This document shows, one piece after another, positions 1,162 to 34,941 of a stretch of 64,000 bases of DNA; position 1 is the first letter of the stretch; each line of letters begins with the position of its first letter. The position numbers and the translations under genes are program-made. Under the pieces are notes generated by a model. The model did no database searches, was not told the origin of the DNA, and saw only the letters and a list, made by a program, of their open reading frames with translations. This stretch comes from Boseongicola aestuarii (GTDB lineage Bacteria; Pseudomonadota; Alphaproteobacteria; Rhodobacterales; Rhodobacteraceae), in NCBI RefSeq assembly GCF_900184815.1, contig NZ_FXXQ01000012.1, positions 1 to 64,000 on the forward strand, read 5' to 3'.

Positions 1162-1665
1162 ATGCTTGGAAAACTATTTGGCCGCAATGGTGGTGCAAAG
1201 CCGAAAAAGGATGTCGCGATCATCCATCAGTCCGTTCCGGATGAGGTCTTGAACATCCAGCCCGAGCACCCCGAGACGCTGGATACGTCATGGATGGACA
1301 GCACAAACATCGTCGATAAGCCCGCGTCCGCAAAAACGCGAACTCCGTCCGCTGCTGCGGTGCAGCCACCAAGCCCCCCTGCCCAGATTCAAATGCCGCC
1401 CGCCGCACCCAGCGCATTTGCCAACCCCAAAGCGGCGACCGGCGTGCGCTGTCCCCATGGTTGGCTGGTTGTGGTTGAAGGCCCCGGCGTGGGCGAGTGG
1501 TTCGTTCTGGAAGGCGGTGTGTCGCAAATTGGTCAGGATGCGGATCAGACGATCCCGCTGACCTTTGGCGATACCTCCATCGCGCCCAAGTGCCATGCCC
1601 AACTTCAACTGGAGCTGACCGCCGGCGGCCTAGATATCCTCGACCAGGACGACGCCGGGCAGTGA
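1162..1665 (+). CDS. FHA-domain protein, truncated in its FHA domain
   Basis: The start is ATG 1162 with GGAGAA about 7 nt upstream. The 167-aa product has a short basic N-terminus, a proline/alanine-rich linker (about 50-92), then an FHA beginning at about residue 95 (CPHGWLVVVEGPGVGEW). FHA domains bind phosphothreonine peptides. Roseobacter relatives, as I recall them, begin the same way and continue for roughly 50 more residues with the later FHA strands. Here the last 12 codons (1630-1665) are simply the antisense of the dnaE 3' end, so the domain is incomplete. The gene overlaps dnaE convergently by 36 bp. It is probably non-functional or altered, consistent with a deletion junction near 1620-1630. 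Confidence 0.7.
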   Translation: MLGKLFGRNGGAKPKKDVAIIHQSVPDEVLNIQPEHPETLDTSWMDSTNIVDKPASAKTRTPSAAAVQPPSPPAQIQMPPAAPSAFANPKAATGVRCPHGWLVVVEGPGVGEWFVLEGGVSQIGQDADQTIPLTFGDTSIAPKCHAQLQLELTAGGLDILDQDDAGQ

Positions 1666-4600
1666 TTTCAACGCGCCCTTGATCTGCGGCGAAACGGGCC
1701 ATCCGTCGCCGATAGATACAGTAACGTCTTGCAGAGCGCCCGGCAGCGGCACCGCAAGAGCCGTCAGGCAAACCTCGCCGCGTGTGCGGATCGATTGATC
1801 AACCTTGAAGCGTTCCAGCACGGATTGCACCATCTGCACCGCGCCTTCGTCGTCGATCATCACATTCAGTCCGGCCGTCGCAGCATCAACGATCCCGTCA
1901 ATCGGCGCGACCGAGCGGGCAATGGGATCAAACTGGCCCTCGTTGAACCGGGCTTCCAGCGTCATCACGACCTGCGTGGTTTGCTCGAACACTTTGCGCA
2001 CGGTCTCGAAGTCGTCGGGGAACAAAGCCATGCCCGAGACCTGACCCGTCGGATCGGAGATGTTCATGCGGAAAAAGCGGGTACCACGACCGGATTTGCG
2101 TTCCTGCAAGGCGGTCACCACAACGCCGACCCGCGCAATCGCGGCGCCATCCGCTTCGGCCTTAACCTGCAAGTCCGCGAGGTTCATCAGGCCTTTGCGC
2201 TTCAAGGCGGGCGCATAATCATCAAGCGGATGCCCGGAAAGATAGAACCCGATCGCAGTCTGTTCCTGATCCAGCCGCTCATTCGGCAACCAGTCTTCAA
2301 CCGGTGACAGACGCGGTTCCGGCAAGTCGTCGCCCGCCTCTCCGAACAGGGATACCTGCGCACTGGCGCGCTGCTCGTGGATCGCAGCAGAATACGCGGT
2401 CAGGCCGTCCAATGACTGAAATATCCGCCGCCGGTTCGGATCAAGCTGATCGAACGCCCCGGCGCGCGCCAACATCTCCATGGGGCGCTTTCCGACCCGC
2501 TTCAGATCGACCCGCCTCGCCAGATCGAAGACATTCACGAACGGCTTGTCTCCGCGCGCCTCGACAATCAGTTTCATCGCCTCGACACCCACGTTCTTCA
2601 GCGCGCCAAGGGCATAAACCAGCTTTTGATCTCTGACCGAGAACACGGCCTCGGATCGGTTCACACAGGGTGGCACAATCTCGATTTCCAGCCCGCGCCG
2701 CACTTCGTTCGCGTAAACATCCAGCTTCTCGGTCAGGTGCAAATCGCAGTTCATCACACCGGCCATGAATTCGACCGGGTGGTTCGCCTTCAGCCACGCC
2801 GTTTGATAGCTGACGACCGCATAGGCAGCAGCGTGTGACTTGTTGAAACCATAGTTCGCGAACTTGTCGAGAAGGTTCCAGACCTCCATAGCTTTCTTCT
2901 TGTCGACGCCGTTCTTCGCAGCACCTTCCAGAAATTTCGGACGTTCGGCGTCCATTGCCTCCTGAATTTTCTTACCCATCGCACGGCGCAAAAGGTCAGC
3001 ACCGCCCAGCGAGTATCCCGCCATTTCCTGCGCGATCTGCATCACCTGTTCCTGATAGACGATGATGCCTTGGGTCTCGTCCAGAATATGGTCAATCGAC
3101 GGGTGCAAACGCTCGCGCTCGGCACGCGCGTTCTTCACGTCGCAATACTGCGGGATGTTCTCCATCGGTCCCGGACGATACAGCGCGACCAGCGCCACAA
3201 TGTCCTCGATACAGGTCGGGCGCATCCGCCGAAGTGCATCCATCATGCCCGAGCTTTCCACCTGAAACACCGCGACCGTGCGGGCCTTGGCATAGAGCTC
3301 ATAGCTTTTCTCGTCATCCAGCGGGATCAGCCCGATATCGTTCTCGGTGCCTGGGTCCGGTTCGTAAAGCCTGGTCCCGTCCGCGGCCACGTCCAGCGAC
3401 CGACCGCTCGCCAAGATCTGATCAATCGCGTTCTGAATGACCGTCAGCGTTTTCAGGCCCAGAAAGTCGAATTTTACCAACCCGGCTTGCTCGACCCACT
3501 TCATATTGAACTGCGTAGCCGGCATTTCGGACCGTGGATCGCGATATAAGGGCACCAGTTTGTCCAAAGGCCGGTCGCCAATCACCACGCCCGCCGCGTG
3601 GGTCGAAGCGTTCCTGAGCAGCCCCTCGACCTGTTGACCGTAGTCCAACAGTCGCGCCACAACCTCTTCGGCCTTCGCCTCTTCCCGAAGGCGCGGTTCA
3701 TCCGCCAATGCCTTCTCGATCGAGACGGGTTTCACGCCCTCAACCGGGATCAGCTTCGACAGGCGATCGACCTGCCCATAGGGCATCTGCAAGACCCGAC
3801 CCACATCGCGCACGGCGGCCTTCGATAACAAGGCACCAAAGGTGATGATCTGCCCCACTTTATCGCGCCCGTACTTCTCCTGAACATAGCGGATCACCTC
3901 TTCGCGGCGATCCATACAGAAATCGATGTCGAAATCTGGCATCGAGACGCGTTCGGGGTTCAAAAACCGCTCGAACAGCAGGGAATAGCGCAAGGGATCA
4001 AGGTCGGTGATTGTCAGTGCATAGGCCACCAATGAACCCGCACCCGAGCCACGCCCTGGTCCCACAGGAATGTGGTGGTCTTTGGCCCACTTGATGAAGT
4101 CCGCAACGATCAGGAAGTAACCGGGGAACCCCATCCCCTCGATGATCCCAAGCTCGAACTCCAGCCGCTTTTCATATTCCTCGACCGGCGCAACGGCTTC
4201 GATAACCGCAAGCCGATTCTTCAGCCCCTCGAATGACTGACGTCGCAATTCTTCGATTTCGTCGTCGGCGAACTTCGGCAGGATCGGGTCGTGCCGCTCG
4301 ACAGCAAAGGCACAGCGGCGGGCGATTTCGACCGTGTTTTCCAGAGCCTCCGGCAAATCTGCAAAAAGCGTCGCCATCTCGGCAGGCGTCTTGAAATAGT
4401 GCTGTGGTGTCAAACGTCGGCGCGGGGCCTGCTGGTCCACATAGGCCCCTTCAGCGATACAAATCAGCGCGTCATGCGCCTCATACATTTTCTGGTCCGT
4501 GAAATAGACGTCATTCGTCGCAACCAGAGGCAGGTCCATTGCATAGGCCATTTCGATCTGCGGCGTTTCGGTCAGCTTTTCGGCCTCAGGCACCTGACCG

Positions 4601-5142
4601 TTCTCGGTCGGATGCCGCTGCAGTTCCACATACAGCCGATCGCCAAATGTGGCTGCCAGTTGCGTCATCAGTCCTTGCGCTTTTGGCTTCTGCCCTGCCC
4701 GCAACAACCGCCCGACCGGACCATCAGGCCCGCCCGTGAGACAAATCAGCCCTTCCGAAAACTCGGCCAATTCGTCCAGAGTAACATGCGGATAATCTGC
4801 CTCGCGCAGATACAAAGCCGAATTCAGCTTCATCAGGCATTCATAGCCCGCGCGCGTCTGGGCCAGCAAAACAAGCGGCGCGGGGCGCAGGGGCTTTTCA
4901 CCGGGAGCGGGCGTCTCATACGCCAGATCTACCTGACAGCCGACAATCGGTTGGATCCCGGCATCAAGCGCGGACACGGAAAACTCCAGTGCCGCGAACA
5001 TATTGTTCGTATCGGTCACCGCAACGGCAGGCATTCCGGCTTTCTCGCAAAGCCCGGGCAGCTTTTTCAGCCGCATCGCCCCCTCAAGAAGCGAATATTC
5101 CGTGTGCAGGCGAAGGTGGATGAATTTCGGATCTGTGCTCAT
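1630..5142 (-). CDS. dnaE: DNA polymerase III alpha subunit
   Basis: This is the replicative polymerase of the DNA polymerase III holoenzyme, about 1170 aa, the usual size for DnaE. The N-terminal PHP domain starts HLRLHTEYSLLEGA. The polymerase core shows PGRGSGAGSL (about residue 365) and the metal-binding PDFDIDF (about 400). The C-terminal part carries the helix-hairpin-helix and OB-fold (GVVVTALQERKSGRGTRFF). I chose ATG 5140-5142 because homologues begin at (M)STDPKFIHLRLHTEYS; an upstream ATG at 5199 would add 19 unconserved residues. The gene is divergent from the arsR-SRPBCC operon and convergent with the truncated FHA gene. Confidence 0.97.
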   Translation of the reverse strand: MSTDPKFIHLRLHTEYSLLEGAMRLKKLPGLCEKAGMPAVAVTDTNNMFAALEFSVSALDAGIQPIVGCQVDLAYETPAPGEKPLRPAPLVLLAQTRAGYECLMKLNSALYLREADYPHVTLDELAEFSEGLICLTGGPDGPVGRLLRAGQKPKAQGLMTQLAATFGDRLYVELQRHPTENGQVPEAEKLTETPQIEMAYAMDLPLVATNDVYFTDQKMYEAHDALICIAEGAYVDQQAPRRRLTPQHYFKTPAEMATLFADLPEALENTVEIARRCAFAVERHDPILPKFADDEIEELRRQSFEGLKNRLAVIEAVAPVEEYEKRLEFELGIIEGMGFPGYFLIVADFIKWAKDHHIPVGPGRGSGAGSLVAYALTITDLDPLRYSLLFERFLNPERVSMPDFDIDFCMDRREEVIRYVQEKYGRDKVGQIITFGALLSKAAVRDVGRVLQMPYGQVDRLSKLIPVEGVKPVSIEKALADEPRLREEAKAEEVVARLLDYGQQVEGLLRNASTHAAGVVIGDRPLDKLVPLYRDPRSEMPATQFNMKWVEQAGLVKFDFLGLKTLTVIQNAIDQILASGRSLDVAADGTRLYEPDPGTENDIGLIPLDDEKSYELYAKARTVAVFQVESSGMMDALRRMRPTCIEDIVALVALYRPGPMENIPQYCDVKNARAERERLHPSIDHILDETQGIIVYQEQVMQIAQEMAGYSLGGADLLRRAMGKKIQEAMDAERPKFLEGAAKNGVDKKKAMEVWNLLDKFANYGFNKSHAAAYAVVSYQTAWLKANHPVEFMAGVMNCDLHLTEKLDVYANEVRRGLEIEIVPPCVNRSEAVFSVRDQKLVYALGALKNVGVEAMKLIVEARGDKPFVNVFDLARRVDLKRVGKRPMEMLARAGAFDQLDPNRRRIFQSLDGLTAYSAAIHEQRASAQVSLFGEAGDDLPEPRLSPVEDWLPNERLDQEQTAIGFYLSGHPLDDYAPALKRKGLMNLADLQVKAEADGAAIARVGVVVTALQERKSGRGTRFFRMNISDPTGQVSGMALFPDDFETVRKVFEQTTQVVMTLEARFNEGQFDPIARSVAPIDGIVDAATAGLNVMIDDEGAVQMVQSVLERFKVDQSIRTRGEVCLTALAVPLPGALQDVTVSIGDGWPVSPQIKGALKSLPGVVLVEDI

Positions 5143-5208
5143 CCGACTACCGTATTTTGCGCGTGCGCAGTGGGAAAGCACCAAGTGCAGATCATCCACA
5201 GAAATAAG

Positions 5209-5224
5209 TTAGCTATATGGCTAA
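5209..5224 (+). promoter_or_regulatory. Palindromic operator 1 of the arsR-SRPBCC operon
   Basis: TTAGCTATATGGCTAA is a near-perfect palindrome (one mismatched pair). It is matched 48 bp downstream by a second copy at 5257-5272. ArsR-family regulators that sit with SRPBCC proteins commonly have palindromes of this kind at their own promoter, so autoregulation is inferred. It contains an ATG (5217) in frame with arsR. Confidence 0.6.
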
Positions 5225-5256
5225 GTATCTTGACTCGCGGCGGCGGCATCCATTAC

Positions 5257-5272
5257 TTAGCCATATGACTAA
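5257..5272 (+). promoter_or_regulatory. Palindromic operator 2, overlapping the arsR start codon
   Basis: TTAGCCATATGACTAA is a near-perfect palindrome (one mismatched pair) and contains ATG 5265-5267, the preferred arsR start. The wider blocks 5211-5234 and 5259-5282 match at 20 of 24 positions, so operator and start codon appear duplicated together. Neither start has a recognisable ribosome site, which fits a leaderless or nearly leaderless transcript. Confidence 0.6.
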
Positions 5273-5597
5273 CAATCTTGACACCTTCTTCGGAGCCATG
5301 TCCGACCCGACCCGCCGCGCGGTGATTGAGCGCCTCGTTTCTGGCCCCGCAGCCGTTAGCGAGCTGCATGCGCCCCACGACATCGCGCTTCCGACATTCA
5401 TGCGGCATCTCATGGTGCTTGAAGAAAGCGGCCTTGTACGCAGCGAGAAAAAGGGTCGCGTGCGGACAGTTCATATCGAAGCTGCCCCGCTGGCGGCGGC
5501 AGAAAGCTGGCTGCAAAAACAGCGTGCCATGTGGGAAGGGCGTCTGGATCGCCTGAGCCTCCTGGCAGAATCCATCGCGAAAGCCGAGAAAGGATAG
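5265..5597 (+). CDS. ArsR-family transcriptional regulator
   Basis: A small winged-helix repressor of about 110 aa, beginning MTNNLDTFFGAMSDPTRR. The HTH covers roughly residues 10-75 (AVSELHAPHDIALPTFMRHL then the wing LVRSEKKGRVRTV). The metal-binding ELCVCDL motif of classical ArsR/SmtB sensors is absent, so it is unlikely to sense metals. The start at 5265 fits the family; ATG 5217 in frame would add MAKYLDSRRRHPLLSH, which itself looks like a duplicated start. It is the first gene of a three-gene operon with two SRPBCC proteins, 4 nt before the next gene. The ligand is unknown. Confidence 0.9.
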   Translation: MTNNLDTFFGAMSDPTRRAVIERLVSGPAAVSELHAPHDIALPTFMRHLMVLEESGLVRSEKKGRVRTVHIEAAPLAAAESWLQKQRAMWEGRLDRLSLLAESIAKAEKG

Positions 5598-5601
5598 ATT
5601 T

Positions 5602-6060
5602 ATGCCGCTAGATACCACTTCCTTTAATGTCATCCGCACCTTGCCCCTTCCGCCTGACCGGTTGTTTTACGTACTCACCGACGCCAAGCACCGCGAGAAA
5701 TGGGGCGCGCCAGATGCGGATACCGTCCTCATCGTCGAGAAAGAGGACGTCAGGGTCGGTGGCCAAGACCGCCACCGCTGCGGGCCCAAGGACGCCCCGA
5801 AATTCCTCGTAGATACGCGATGGTATGATCTTGCCGCACCCGAGCGCGCTGTCTTCACAGAAACGCTTGTCTTTGCCGGACAGGCCGCAATGACCAGCCT
5901 TGTGACATACAGCTTAACCCCAAAAGGCAATGGCACAGAACTTGGTGTAACTGTGGCCGTGTCGTCCTTTACCGGGCCCGAAACTCTTGGAGAAGTGCGT
6001 GCCGGCTGGGAAGGTGGCCTCGTAAATCTTGAACGGCATGTCAACGGGCTGGACCAATGA
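5602..6060 (+). CDS. SRPBCC (AHSA1/START-like) domain protein
   Basis: A 152-aa protein with one SRPBCC domain, a helix-grip fold with a deep hydrophobic pocket. It begins DTTSFNVIRTLPLPPDRLF, with the typical WG/W pair (REKWGAPDAD) and the FTETLVFAGQAAMTSLVTYS strand pair. It follows arsR by 4 nt and overlaps the next gene by 4 nt (ATGA), so translation is probably coupled. Pairs of ArsR and SRPBCC proteins are common in alphaproteobacteria. Whether the domain binds the inducer, acts as an enzyme, or assists Hsp90 like eukaryotic Aha1 cannot be told from sequence. Confidence 0.85.
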   Translation: MPLDTTSFNVIRTLPLPPDRLFYVLTDAKHREKWGAPDADTVLIVEKEDVRVGGQDRHRCGPKDAPKFLVDTRWYDLAAPERAVFTETLVFAGQAAMTSLVTYSLTPKGNGTELGVTVAVSSFTGPETLGEVRAGWEGGLVNLERHVNGLDQ

Positions 6061-6524
6061 TCCACTTTGATCCCGAACGCGATCTTCGCATCGAGCAATT
6101 CATCAAGGCCTCGCCCGAAACCATATGGCGTTGCTGGCAGGAACCGGACCCCTTCAAGCAATGGTTCACTCCGCCCGGCGTCGAAGTGACTGACGTCGTG
6201 AATGACGTACGCTCGGGTGGTCGCGCCTATGTCGTGATGAAGCTTCCCGATGGCACACTCATGCCGAATGAAGGCTGTTTCCTCCACGCTGAATACCCGA
6301 CGCTTCTGGTTTATGGCGATGCAGTAACGGCCGATTGGCGGCCCGGAAATGCACCCTTCATGACAGCGATCGTCGAATTGATCGCTCAAAACGAAGGCAC
6401 ACTTTATCGTGCCACCGTCCTCCACAACGATGCCGCAACCCGCAAAAAGCACGAAAGTTTCGGATTTCATGACGGCTGGGGCACGACTTTGAAGCAATTG
6501 GCTGATCTGGCGAAGGCCCTGTAA
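6057..6524 (+). CDS. SRPBCC (AHSA1-like) domain protein
   Basis: A 155-aa SRPBCC protein, last gene of the arsR operon. It contains FIKASPETIWRCWQEPDPFKQW near the N-terminus and GWGTTLKQLADL at the C-terminus, which is the usual layout of AHSA1/START-like proteins annotated as SRPBCC or glutathione S-transferase-related. Its start overlaps the previous stop. The two SRPBCC proteins differ clearly from each other, so this is not a recent duplication. Function is not known; a lipophilic ligand is a reasonable inference from the fold. Confidence 0.85.
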   Translation: MIHFDPERDLRIEQFIKASPETIWRCWQEPDPFKQWFTPPGVEVTDVVNDVRSGGRAYVVMKLPDGTLMPNEGCFLHAEYPTLLVYGDAVTADWRPGNAPFMTAIVELIAQNEGTLYRATVLHNDAATRKKHESFGFHDGWGTTLKQLADLAKAL

Positions 6525-34034: not shown

Positions 34035-34499
34035 TCAATTTGCATTGATGAAGTTCCTGAAGCGGCCATCGATAATCTCGGCCCAACCCTCCACATAATT
34101 CTTTCTGATTTCGGCGGCCTGGTCGCCTCGCGCTTCCCAGCCATCATGTATCAGTGTGACCACTGTCTTGCCGTCGTCCGTCGCTTCAAATTCAACCGAG
34201 ACCGTCGTAGCTTCCGCCTCTGACAACCCAGGATACCAACGGAAAGCGACGCGTCGACCTTCTTCATAGTCTATGATGATGCCCCAGATTCTGTTTTCCC
34301 CGGTTTTCGAGATTTCAAATATCTGCCCGCCTTCATATCGTTCAATGACGACGGTATCGGGTGCAGGCTCGCCAAGATATGGGCTGACGGAATGCGTATC
34401 CAGTGGCCACCAGTGTGAGGCATCCGACATGAATGCATCGAAAGTCTCATCGGGTGACCGATTGACCTCAGAAACAACTTTGATCGCATTTAGTGACAT
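34035..34499 (-). CDS. SRPBCC (AHSA1/START-like) domain protein
   Basis: A 154-aa SRPBCC protein starting ATG 34499 (MSLNAIKVVSEVNRSPDETF). It has the W pair (SHWWPLDTHSVSPYLG), IERYEGGQIFEI and a C-terminal GWAEIIDGRFRNFI helix. It starts 1 nt after the arsR stop, with the stop TGA followed by C and ATG, so it is translationally coupled to the upstream regulator. GC content of this pair is somewhat lower than its neighbours. The ligand is unknown. Confidence 0.85.
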   Translation of the reverse strand: MSLNAIKVVSEVNRSPDETFDAFMSDASHWWPLDTHSVSPYLGEPAPDTVVIERYEGGQIFEISKTGENRIWGIIIDYEEGRRVAFRWYPGLSEAEATTVSVEFEATDDGKTVVTLIHDGWEARGDQAAEIRKNYVEGWAEIIDGRFRNFINAN

Positions 34500-34500
34500 G

Positions 34501-34797
34501 TCATTCCTCCTCTTGTTCATTGAGCGAAGCCAGCAAATCCGACCAATGCGCCGTCCAAAATGCACGGATCTCATCCAATTTCGCTTTGTTGACGCAATAA
34601 ATGTTTTGCGCCCCTTTGGGCTTGGCGTAGATCAGGTCTGCGTCCCTCAGAACTTTCAGGTGTTGCGACATTACGGGCTGCGATACGTCAATACTTGCTG
34701 TCAGTTCGCGCACAGACATTGGTCGCTTCGCAAGCAGATCGACGACGCTTTGACGAATGGGGTTTGAAAGGGATTTGAATTCAATTTCATAAGGCAT
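34501..34797 (-). CDS. ArsR-family transcriptional regulator
   Basis: A 98-aa winged-helix protein (MPYEIEFKSLSNPIRQS). The HTH is MSVRELTASIDVSQPVMSQHLKVL and the wing DLIYAKPKGAQNIYCV. As with the regulator at 5265 the classical metal-binding motif is missing. It is the first gene of a two-gene ArsR-SRPBCC operon. Its upstream palindrome (34816-34827) differs from that of the first module, so the two systems probably do not cross-regulate. Confidence 0.9.
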   Translation of the reverse strand: MPYEIEFKSLSNPIRQSVVDLLAKRPMSVRELTASIDVSQPVMSQHLKVLRDADLIYAKPKGAQNIYCVNKAKLDEIRAFWTAHWSDLLASLNEQEEE

Positions 34798-34815
34798 TCC
34801 TAATGATAAGAATAT

Positions 34816-34827
34816 CCTAATATTAGG
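34816..34827. promoter_or_regulatory. Palindrome upstream of the second arsR, likely operator
   Basis: CCTAATATTAGG is a perfect 12-bp palindrome 19 bp before the arsR start codon, in an AT-rich promoter region. Autoregulation by the ArsR protein is inferred from position. Confidence 0.55.
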
Positions 34828-34941
34828 TCAAGCGGGAAATCCGGGTAAGCCGCCTCGTTGCGACAATGCGGATATCGGTCGCTCGAAGCCAACGCAGCAT
34901 TGGTCAGAATGGGCTCAAAACCTCTAATCGCGTCCCCCTCC

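Follow-up and report, generated by a model that had tools for sequence, protein, structure and literature searches.

This analysis concerns the start of an arsR gene and the two palindromes in front of it, in a stretch of DNA from Boseongicola aestuarii (contig NZ_FXXQ01000012.1, positions 1 to 64,000 of the forward strand; the whole 64,000 nucleotides are referred to as the window). The gene encodes a regulator of the ArsR/SmtB family and is followed directly by two AHSA1/SRPBCC genes. The features of the region are as follows.

5209 to 5224, plus strand: operator-like site 1, the dyad TTAGCTATATGGCTAA, just upstream of the −35 box; a dyad of this type is found in homologs.
5217 to 5219, plus strand: in-frame ATG within site 1, upstream of the arsR ATG and unlikely to serve as a start codon; rarely conserved, and its frame is not preserved.
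5230 to 5235, plus strand: −35 box TTGACT, its first T being at −35 when counted from the A of the arsR start codon.
5252 to 5258, plus strand: −10-like element ATTACTT (hexamer 5252 to 5257 with a 16-nt spacer, or 5253 to 5258 with 17), at an information peak in homologs.
5257 to 5272, plus strand: operator-like site 2, the dyad TTAGCCATATGACTAA, overlapping the −10 edge, the predicted +1, the start codon and codons 2 and 3.
5265, plus strand: predicted transcription start, the A of the start codon, judged from the −35/−10 spacing to the ATG and the near absence of Shine-Dalgarno sequences.
5265 to 5597, plus strand: arsR, 110 aa from MTNNLD, an ArsR/SmtB-type winged helix without cysteine.
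5602 to 6060, plus strand: AHSA1/SRPBCC gene a (PF08327, E 8.2e-9), with an AAGGA-type ribosome site before its ATG.
6057 to 6524, plus strand: AHSA1/SRPBCC gene b (PF08327, E 1.3e-22), overlapping the stop of gene a.

Both palindromes fit a pattern composed of TTAGCYAT and ATGRCTAA, with the dyad axis between the two halves and an ATG beginning immediately 3′ of it. A distance of 48 bp separates the axes, and the ATGs at 5217 (site 1) and 5265 (site 2) are both in frame with the ArsR open reading frame (ORF) ending at 5597; a preliminary description of this DNA had reported the two near-palindromes and their in-frame ATGs in exactly this form. When the window was scanned with up to three mismatches, four strand-matches were found, all of them at the two palindromes, against a mean of 0.27 and a maximum of 3 in 100 shuffles. 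In the 4.0-Mb genome of the organism itself, a limit of one mismatch left the two palindromes as the only matches. With as many as three mismatches allowed, the pattern gave 10 forward matches and a reversed control 28, and because the control was commoner the weaker matches in this genome carry no weight. Two of these, with two (L003) and three (L004) mismatches, lay inside long ORFs and were rejected as further sites.

The start region was compared among homologs of the ArsR protein, for which a family search returned a match at E ≤ 0.001 in 373 of 394 genomes, many of them weak. Ninety loci were used, namely 30 from the family search (the window gene included) and the 60 next in rank, with one ranked match (G132:C136) left out; identity reached down to 44% at the low end. 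The start of each homolog was placed, with no use of the palindrome, at an ATG 36–48 nt before the DPTRR motif, 39 being preferred and then 48, and the distance came to 39 nt in 49 loci, 48 nt in 39, and 36 and 42 nt in one locus each. A dyad on this start codon, with at least five of eight pairs, was present in 77 of the 90 loci, compared with 2.6% of 4069 other ATGs in the same loci. The dyad also took other forms within the sample. The arms were altered with the ATG still at the centre in L084, L088, L089 and L117 (CTTCACC..ATGGAGAAC, CTTTCCC..ATGGAAAAC), and in L082, L092 and L099 an operator-like dyad was kept at the −10 region with the start ATG further downstream (MNL..), a natural separation of operator and start codon.

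With the A of the ATG set as +1, the TTG of a −35 element was found at −35 in 43 of the 90 loci, at −34 in 14, at −36 in 12 and at −37 in 4. Allowing at least four of the five letters, TTGAC lay at −37 to −34 in 67 loci, compared with 6.2% of 2016 control ATGs and with 2 of 42 ORFs in the window (each 200 aa or longer, with the first ATG taken mechanically as the start). A second information peak covered −12 to −7, and since its part from −12 to −9 falls outside the 16-bp dyad, this information points to a promoter element and not to the operator. From −29 to −14 there was little information (at most 0.18 bit). These distances match a sigma-70-type promoter with its +1 at the A of the start codon. 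A Shine-Dalgarno tetramer at −20 to −4 was present in 2 of the 90 loci compared with 16 of the 42 window ORFs. In the window sequence no ribosome site was visible before the ATG at 5217 or the ATG at 5265, which bears out what had been said of both starts beforehand. Because the −35 and −10 elements are fixed relative to the ATG and Shine-Dalgarno sequences are nearly absent, we infer, with good support, that the arsR mRNA is leaderless and would start at the A of the ATG.

We consider it highly probable that an arsR-AHSA1-AHSA1 operon is driven here from a leaderless promoter under autoregulation, with ArsR binding to two copies of its operator. RNA polymerase would bind TTGACT (5230–5235) and ATTACTT (5252–5258), with the message starting at 5265, and arsR would be translated from the 5′-terminal AUG with no ribosome site. 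An ArsR dimer would occupy each of the two operators, site 2 covering the −10 edge, the +1 and the start codon, and site 1 lying directly upstream of the −35 box. With both sites filled, the polymerase would be shut out and the operon would stay off until ArsR releases the DNA. ArsR as the binder, repression as the outcome and the A as +1 are all things we infer from the sequence. The preliminary description had proposed that the regulator may sit on its own start codon, where it would control leaderless translation or a choice between two N-termini. The first part of that proposal agrees with the operator-like dyad on the start codon and with the promoter spacing in the homologs, and the part concerning two N-termini found no support.

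The strongest competitor is a leadered transcript, made from a promoter upstream of 5209, in which the palindromes would be ArsR operators that just happen to overlap the coding start; 5265 would be a start without a Shine-Dalgarno sequence. An operator in the start region is by itself no proof of a leaderless message, and the window's weak −10 also speaks for a leader, but a TTGAC held at −37 to −34 would be left unexplained, all the more so as 7 of the 13 loci that lack a clear dyad at the start retain it, and so would the scarcity of Shine-Dalgarno tetramers across the sample. We regard a leadered transcript as unlikely.

Site 1 is conserved as well. A dyad of its type (at least 8 of the 12 bases of TTAGCC-N4-GGCTAA) was found between −80 and −24 in 77 of the 90 loci, compared with 11.2% of shuffles. 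Its axis was 44–53 bp before the start-codon axis in 69 of the 90 loci, and the spacing was 47–52 bp in 68 of the 77 loci with site 1. This spacing showed no clear three-base preference, the remainder on division by three being 0, 2 and 1 in 31, 25 and 21 of the 77 loci. In 13 of the 69 loci the triplet 3′ of the site 1 axis was an ATG, which was in frame in 7 and had an open frame in 6, the window included. The 16-codon upstream frame was open in 41 of the 90 loci, compared with 43.5 expected after shuffling. Among four other genomes of the genus, two had an ortholog of at least 83% identity; one of these sisters (L126) retains the in-frame ATG in site 1, and the other (L125) has no ATG there and has an in-frame stop. 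Both starts with an open frame between them were thus conserved in 6 of 90 loci and in one of the two sister orthologs. A paralogous ArsR-AHSA1 locus in the same genome (L137, contig C56 near 110045) has the two-site design with other operator letters (TTCACC..ATGGTTGA, twice), and its upstream ATG meets a TGA after three codons.

These observations bear on the earlier proposal that both ATGs are used, with ArsR selecting either a long (MAKYLD...) or a short (MTNNLD...) protein. The frame of the window is open from 5217 and the sister L126 agrees with it, but the rarity of an open-frame upstream ATG, a frame no more open than after shuffling, the lack of a clear three-base preference in the spacing, the stops in L125 and in the paralog, and the promoter-like character of the segment between the two ATGs leave the choice of N-termini very improbable, and the ATG at 5217 was rejected as an alternative start. 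The idea of a duplicated unit of operator plus start codon was also discarded. Site 1 adjoins the −35 box and site 2 lies on the −10, the +1 and the ATG; the TTGAC beside site 1 holds its distance to the ATG while the spacing of the axes varies, and the CTTGAC that follows site 2 changes synonymously, in the way expected of codons for Leu-Asp. The peptides MAKYLD and MTNNLD are indeed present, but the first is read through the TTGAC acting as the −35 box. Our reading is that site 1 is one half of a two-site operator and that its ATG in the window is an accident of the CATATG centre. On this reading the peptide repeat has two causes, LD coming from the TTGAC of the −35 box in the first copy and from two real codons in the second.

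The coding side of site 2 showed a marked restriction of synonymous codons. Alanine at codon 2 was encoded by GCT in 38 of 38 cases, compared with 5% of 1083 Ala codons later in the same genes; threonine was encoded by ACT in 21 of 22, compared with 3% of 462 later Thr codons; and aspartate by GAT in 13 of 13, compared with 32% of 407 later Asp codons. This locking of codon 2 indicates that the right arm of the palindrome, although it lies in the coding sequence, is under selection as DNA and not only as protein. In the autoregulated promoter proposed here, codons 2 and 3 (M-T/A/D-N in most relatives) would be set by the right arm of the operator. That the palindrome is instead a by-product of the protein N-terminus, with no operator, is scarcely credible: M-A/T/D-N followed by L-D is conserved in many relatives, but so is the left arm TTAGCC outside the ORF, codon 2 is almost only the one that completes the dyad, and the same arms recur at site 1, again outside the ORF.

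A search with the pattern in 299 genomes of the phylum gave matches in 38. Of 29 loci inspected, five (L039, L041, L055, L058 and L059) have an ArsR gene whose start carries the dyad, and the rest were background-like. Genome-wide there were 45 forward matches and 34 for the reversed control, and with the pattern barely above its control the dyad is meaningful only at gene starts. Two wider samples were gathered with the L055 protein: 30 loci from the phylum and the best 80 among the matches listed for named genomes. L142 is the same gene as L055. L251 was too short, and the named sample came to 79. The rates in these samples are not unbiased, because L055 was itself found through its operator. 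An automatic rule called the dyad in 14 of the 30 phylum loci and in 29 of the 79 best named matches listed. Seven calls were removed by eye (L155, L178, L187, L197, L213, L225 and L244) as chance, site 1 or another arrangement, leaving a start-codon dyad in 13 of 30 phylum loci (L055 being one) and in 23 of the 79 best named matches listed.

The usual design in the wider set was TTGAC at −34 to −37, a TATACT- or TATATT-like element and then AACC..ATGGTT. It was present in named strains of Bradyrhizobium, Phyllobacterium and Ancylobacter (L228, L245, L249, L172 and L250), and in contigs of metagenome-assembled genomes labelled Planctomycetota (L192), Caldithrix (L198), Acidobacteria (L206) and Methylomirabilota (L211), labels that may be wrong. 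The same design occurred with other operator letters, as TTGACG-N16-TATACTAAACCATATGGTTAAG in L228 and L245 and as GGTTGAC...TTCAACCACATGGTTGAA in L147 and L171. Other ArsR groups differed in layout, one having a single dyad on the −35 and none at the ATG (for example L151, L191 and L208) and another having close dyads upstream of the ATG (L176, L221 and L242). The operator letters differ by subfamily (ATGGCTAA, ATGGTTGA, ATGGTTAA, ATGGAAAA), with the dyad axis staying on the A of the ATG and TTGAC near −35. With few exceptions the letters of the arms tracked the sequence of the compared ArsR stretch, which we take to be the recognition helix. ALP[ST]F-like helices went with ATGGCTAA, ATGACTAA or ATGGATAA, SLAA-like helices with ATGGTTGA, and SLPA helices with ATGGTTAA (18 of 18).

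Several results weigh against an autoregulated leaderless promoter with its operator on the start codon. In the window, a strict sigma-70 scan of 5060–5330 found no promoter, and the −10 is a weak match to TATAAT. Within the sample of 90 loci, 13 had no clear start dyad and 23 had no TTGAC at −37 to −34; in L034, L073 and L078 site 2 is missing although site 1 and TTGAC are retained, and L092 and L099 have the operator in place with the ATG further downstream. Many distant ArsR relatives are arranged otherwise. Finally, a tree built without the helix columns, on the few columns that remain, gave only one to two independent pairs of helix and operator, which common descent explains equally well. 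We think it reasonably likely that this is a widespread and old arsR-AHSA1 design in which a single palindrome does triple duty, being the operator, the place where transcription starts and the initiation codon, and in which the binding site sets the regulator's first codons. If so, repression would act at the very nucleotides where message and translation begin.

Among the literature compared, the nearest published mechanism is that of acuR-acuI-dddL in Rhodobacter sphaeroides 2.4.1, where 5′ rapid amplification of cDNA ends placed the transcript start exactly at the AUG (PMC3017554). As far as the accessible part of that report goes, AcuR is likewise an autorepressor encoded by the first gene of its operon, with no convincing Shine-Dalgarno sequence, −35 and −10 motifs whose centres lie 35 and 10 bp upstream, and an operator overlapping the promoter. 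It differs in belonging to the TetR family, in responding to acrylate as inducer, and in having one inverted repeat over the promoter, which the accessible part does not place on the start codon. The same source cites lambda cI and tetR of Tn1721 as repressors translated from leaderless messages, these being of other families. Rv2034 of Mycobacterium tuberculosis is an autorepressor of the ArsR family that binds a palindrome where its own gene begins, with a footprint from −30 to +3 on the coding strand; its inverted repeat, CCGTAAGT, has a 4-base spacer and seems to be located 5′ of the start codon. The accessible text makes no leaderless claim (PMC3338718). In Brucella, ArsR6 is an alphaproteobacterial ArsR that binds and regulates its own promoter; its binding is disrupted by Ni, Cd and Cu, and the accessible portion of the article gives neither the protected sequence nor leaderless translation (PMC8509827). 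An ArsR-like gene stands in a potential operon with AHSA1 in Frankia, with no known regulatory link for the ArsR-AHSA1 pair and, in the main text, no mention of an operator, a leaderless message or a start codon (PMC4531530). Leaderless messages themselves are established in alphaproteobacteria. According to the available text of two surveys, 171 start sites in Sinorhizobium meliloti coincide with the first base of the start codon (PMC3616915), and in Bradyrhizobium japonicum 192 fall exactly on the start codon (PMC4842269).

Nothing on point was found in the openly accessible literature for an ArsR operator on a start codon or for a leaderless ArsR. The parts of the system are of known kinds, and what is new is that they are fused at the start codon, an arrangement that distant relatives have conserved. 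It yields a simple sequence rule, a palindrome with an ATG directly 3′ of its axis and TTGAC near −35 of that ATG. Such a rule would predict the operator, the transcription start and the true start codon of many ArsR-AHSA1 regulators, and could correct mis-called starts such as 5217. Experiments on nucleotides shared between leaderless messages and repressors would also have a defined natural set of loci to draw on.

The assignment of the arsR product to the ArsR/SmtB family was based on its winged helix-turn-helix domain and on matches to solved structures. A scan of the 126-aa reading of the protein gave HTH_20 (E 1e-10) and HTH_5 (E 1.3e-5), both above the Pfam cut-offs, and the HTH_metalloreg profile scored 60 bits compared with a cut-off of 55. 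The best of seven structure matches was 3f6o_A (E 1.6e-30), which is named as an ArsR family protein. Classical ArsR is a thiolate metal sensor with a cysteine metal-binding site. The 110-aa protein has no cysteine and hence no such site, and its signal is probably non-thiol. An AHSA1 relative was present in the fetched flanks of all 30 loci from L005 to L034. On the other side of arsR, the window carries a divergent gene for DNA polymerase III alpha (1630–5142), and a match to the N-terminal part of this protein was present in the fetched flanks of 22 of the same 30 loci. Site 1 may also touch the promoter of that gene.

A second ArsR gene lies on the minus strand of the window at 34501–34831, with its ATG at 34797. 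Exactly 34 nt ahead of this ATG is a TTGACC fused with a dyad of another sequence, CCTAATATTAGG. The ATG is directly adjoined by AGGA, which leaves too little distance for an ordinary ribosome site. The gene is possibly another leaderless autoregulated unit, and the ORF that follows it (within 34035–34574) appeared SRPBCC-like by eye.
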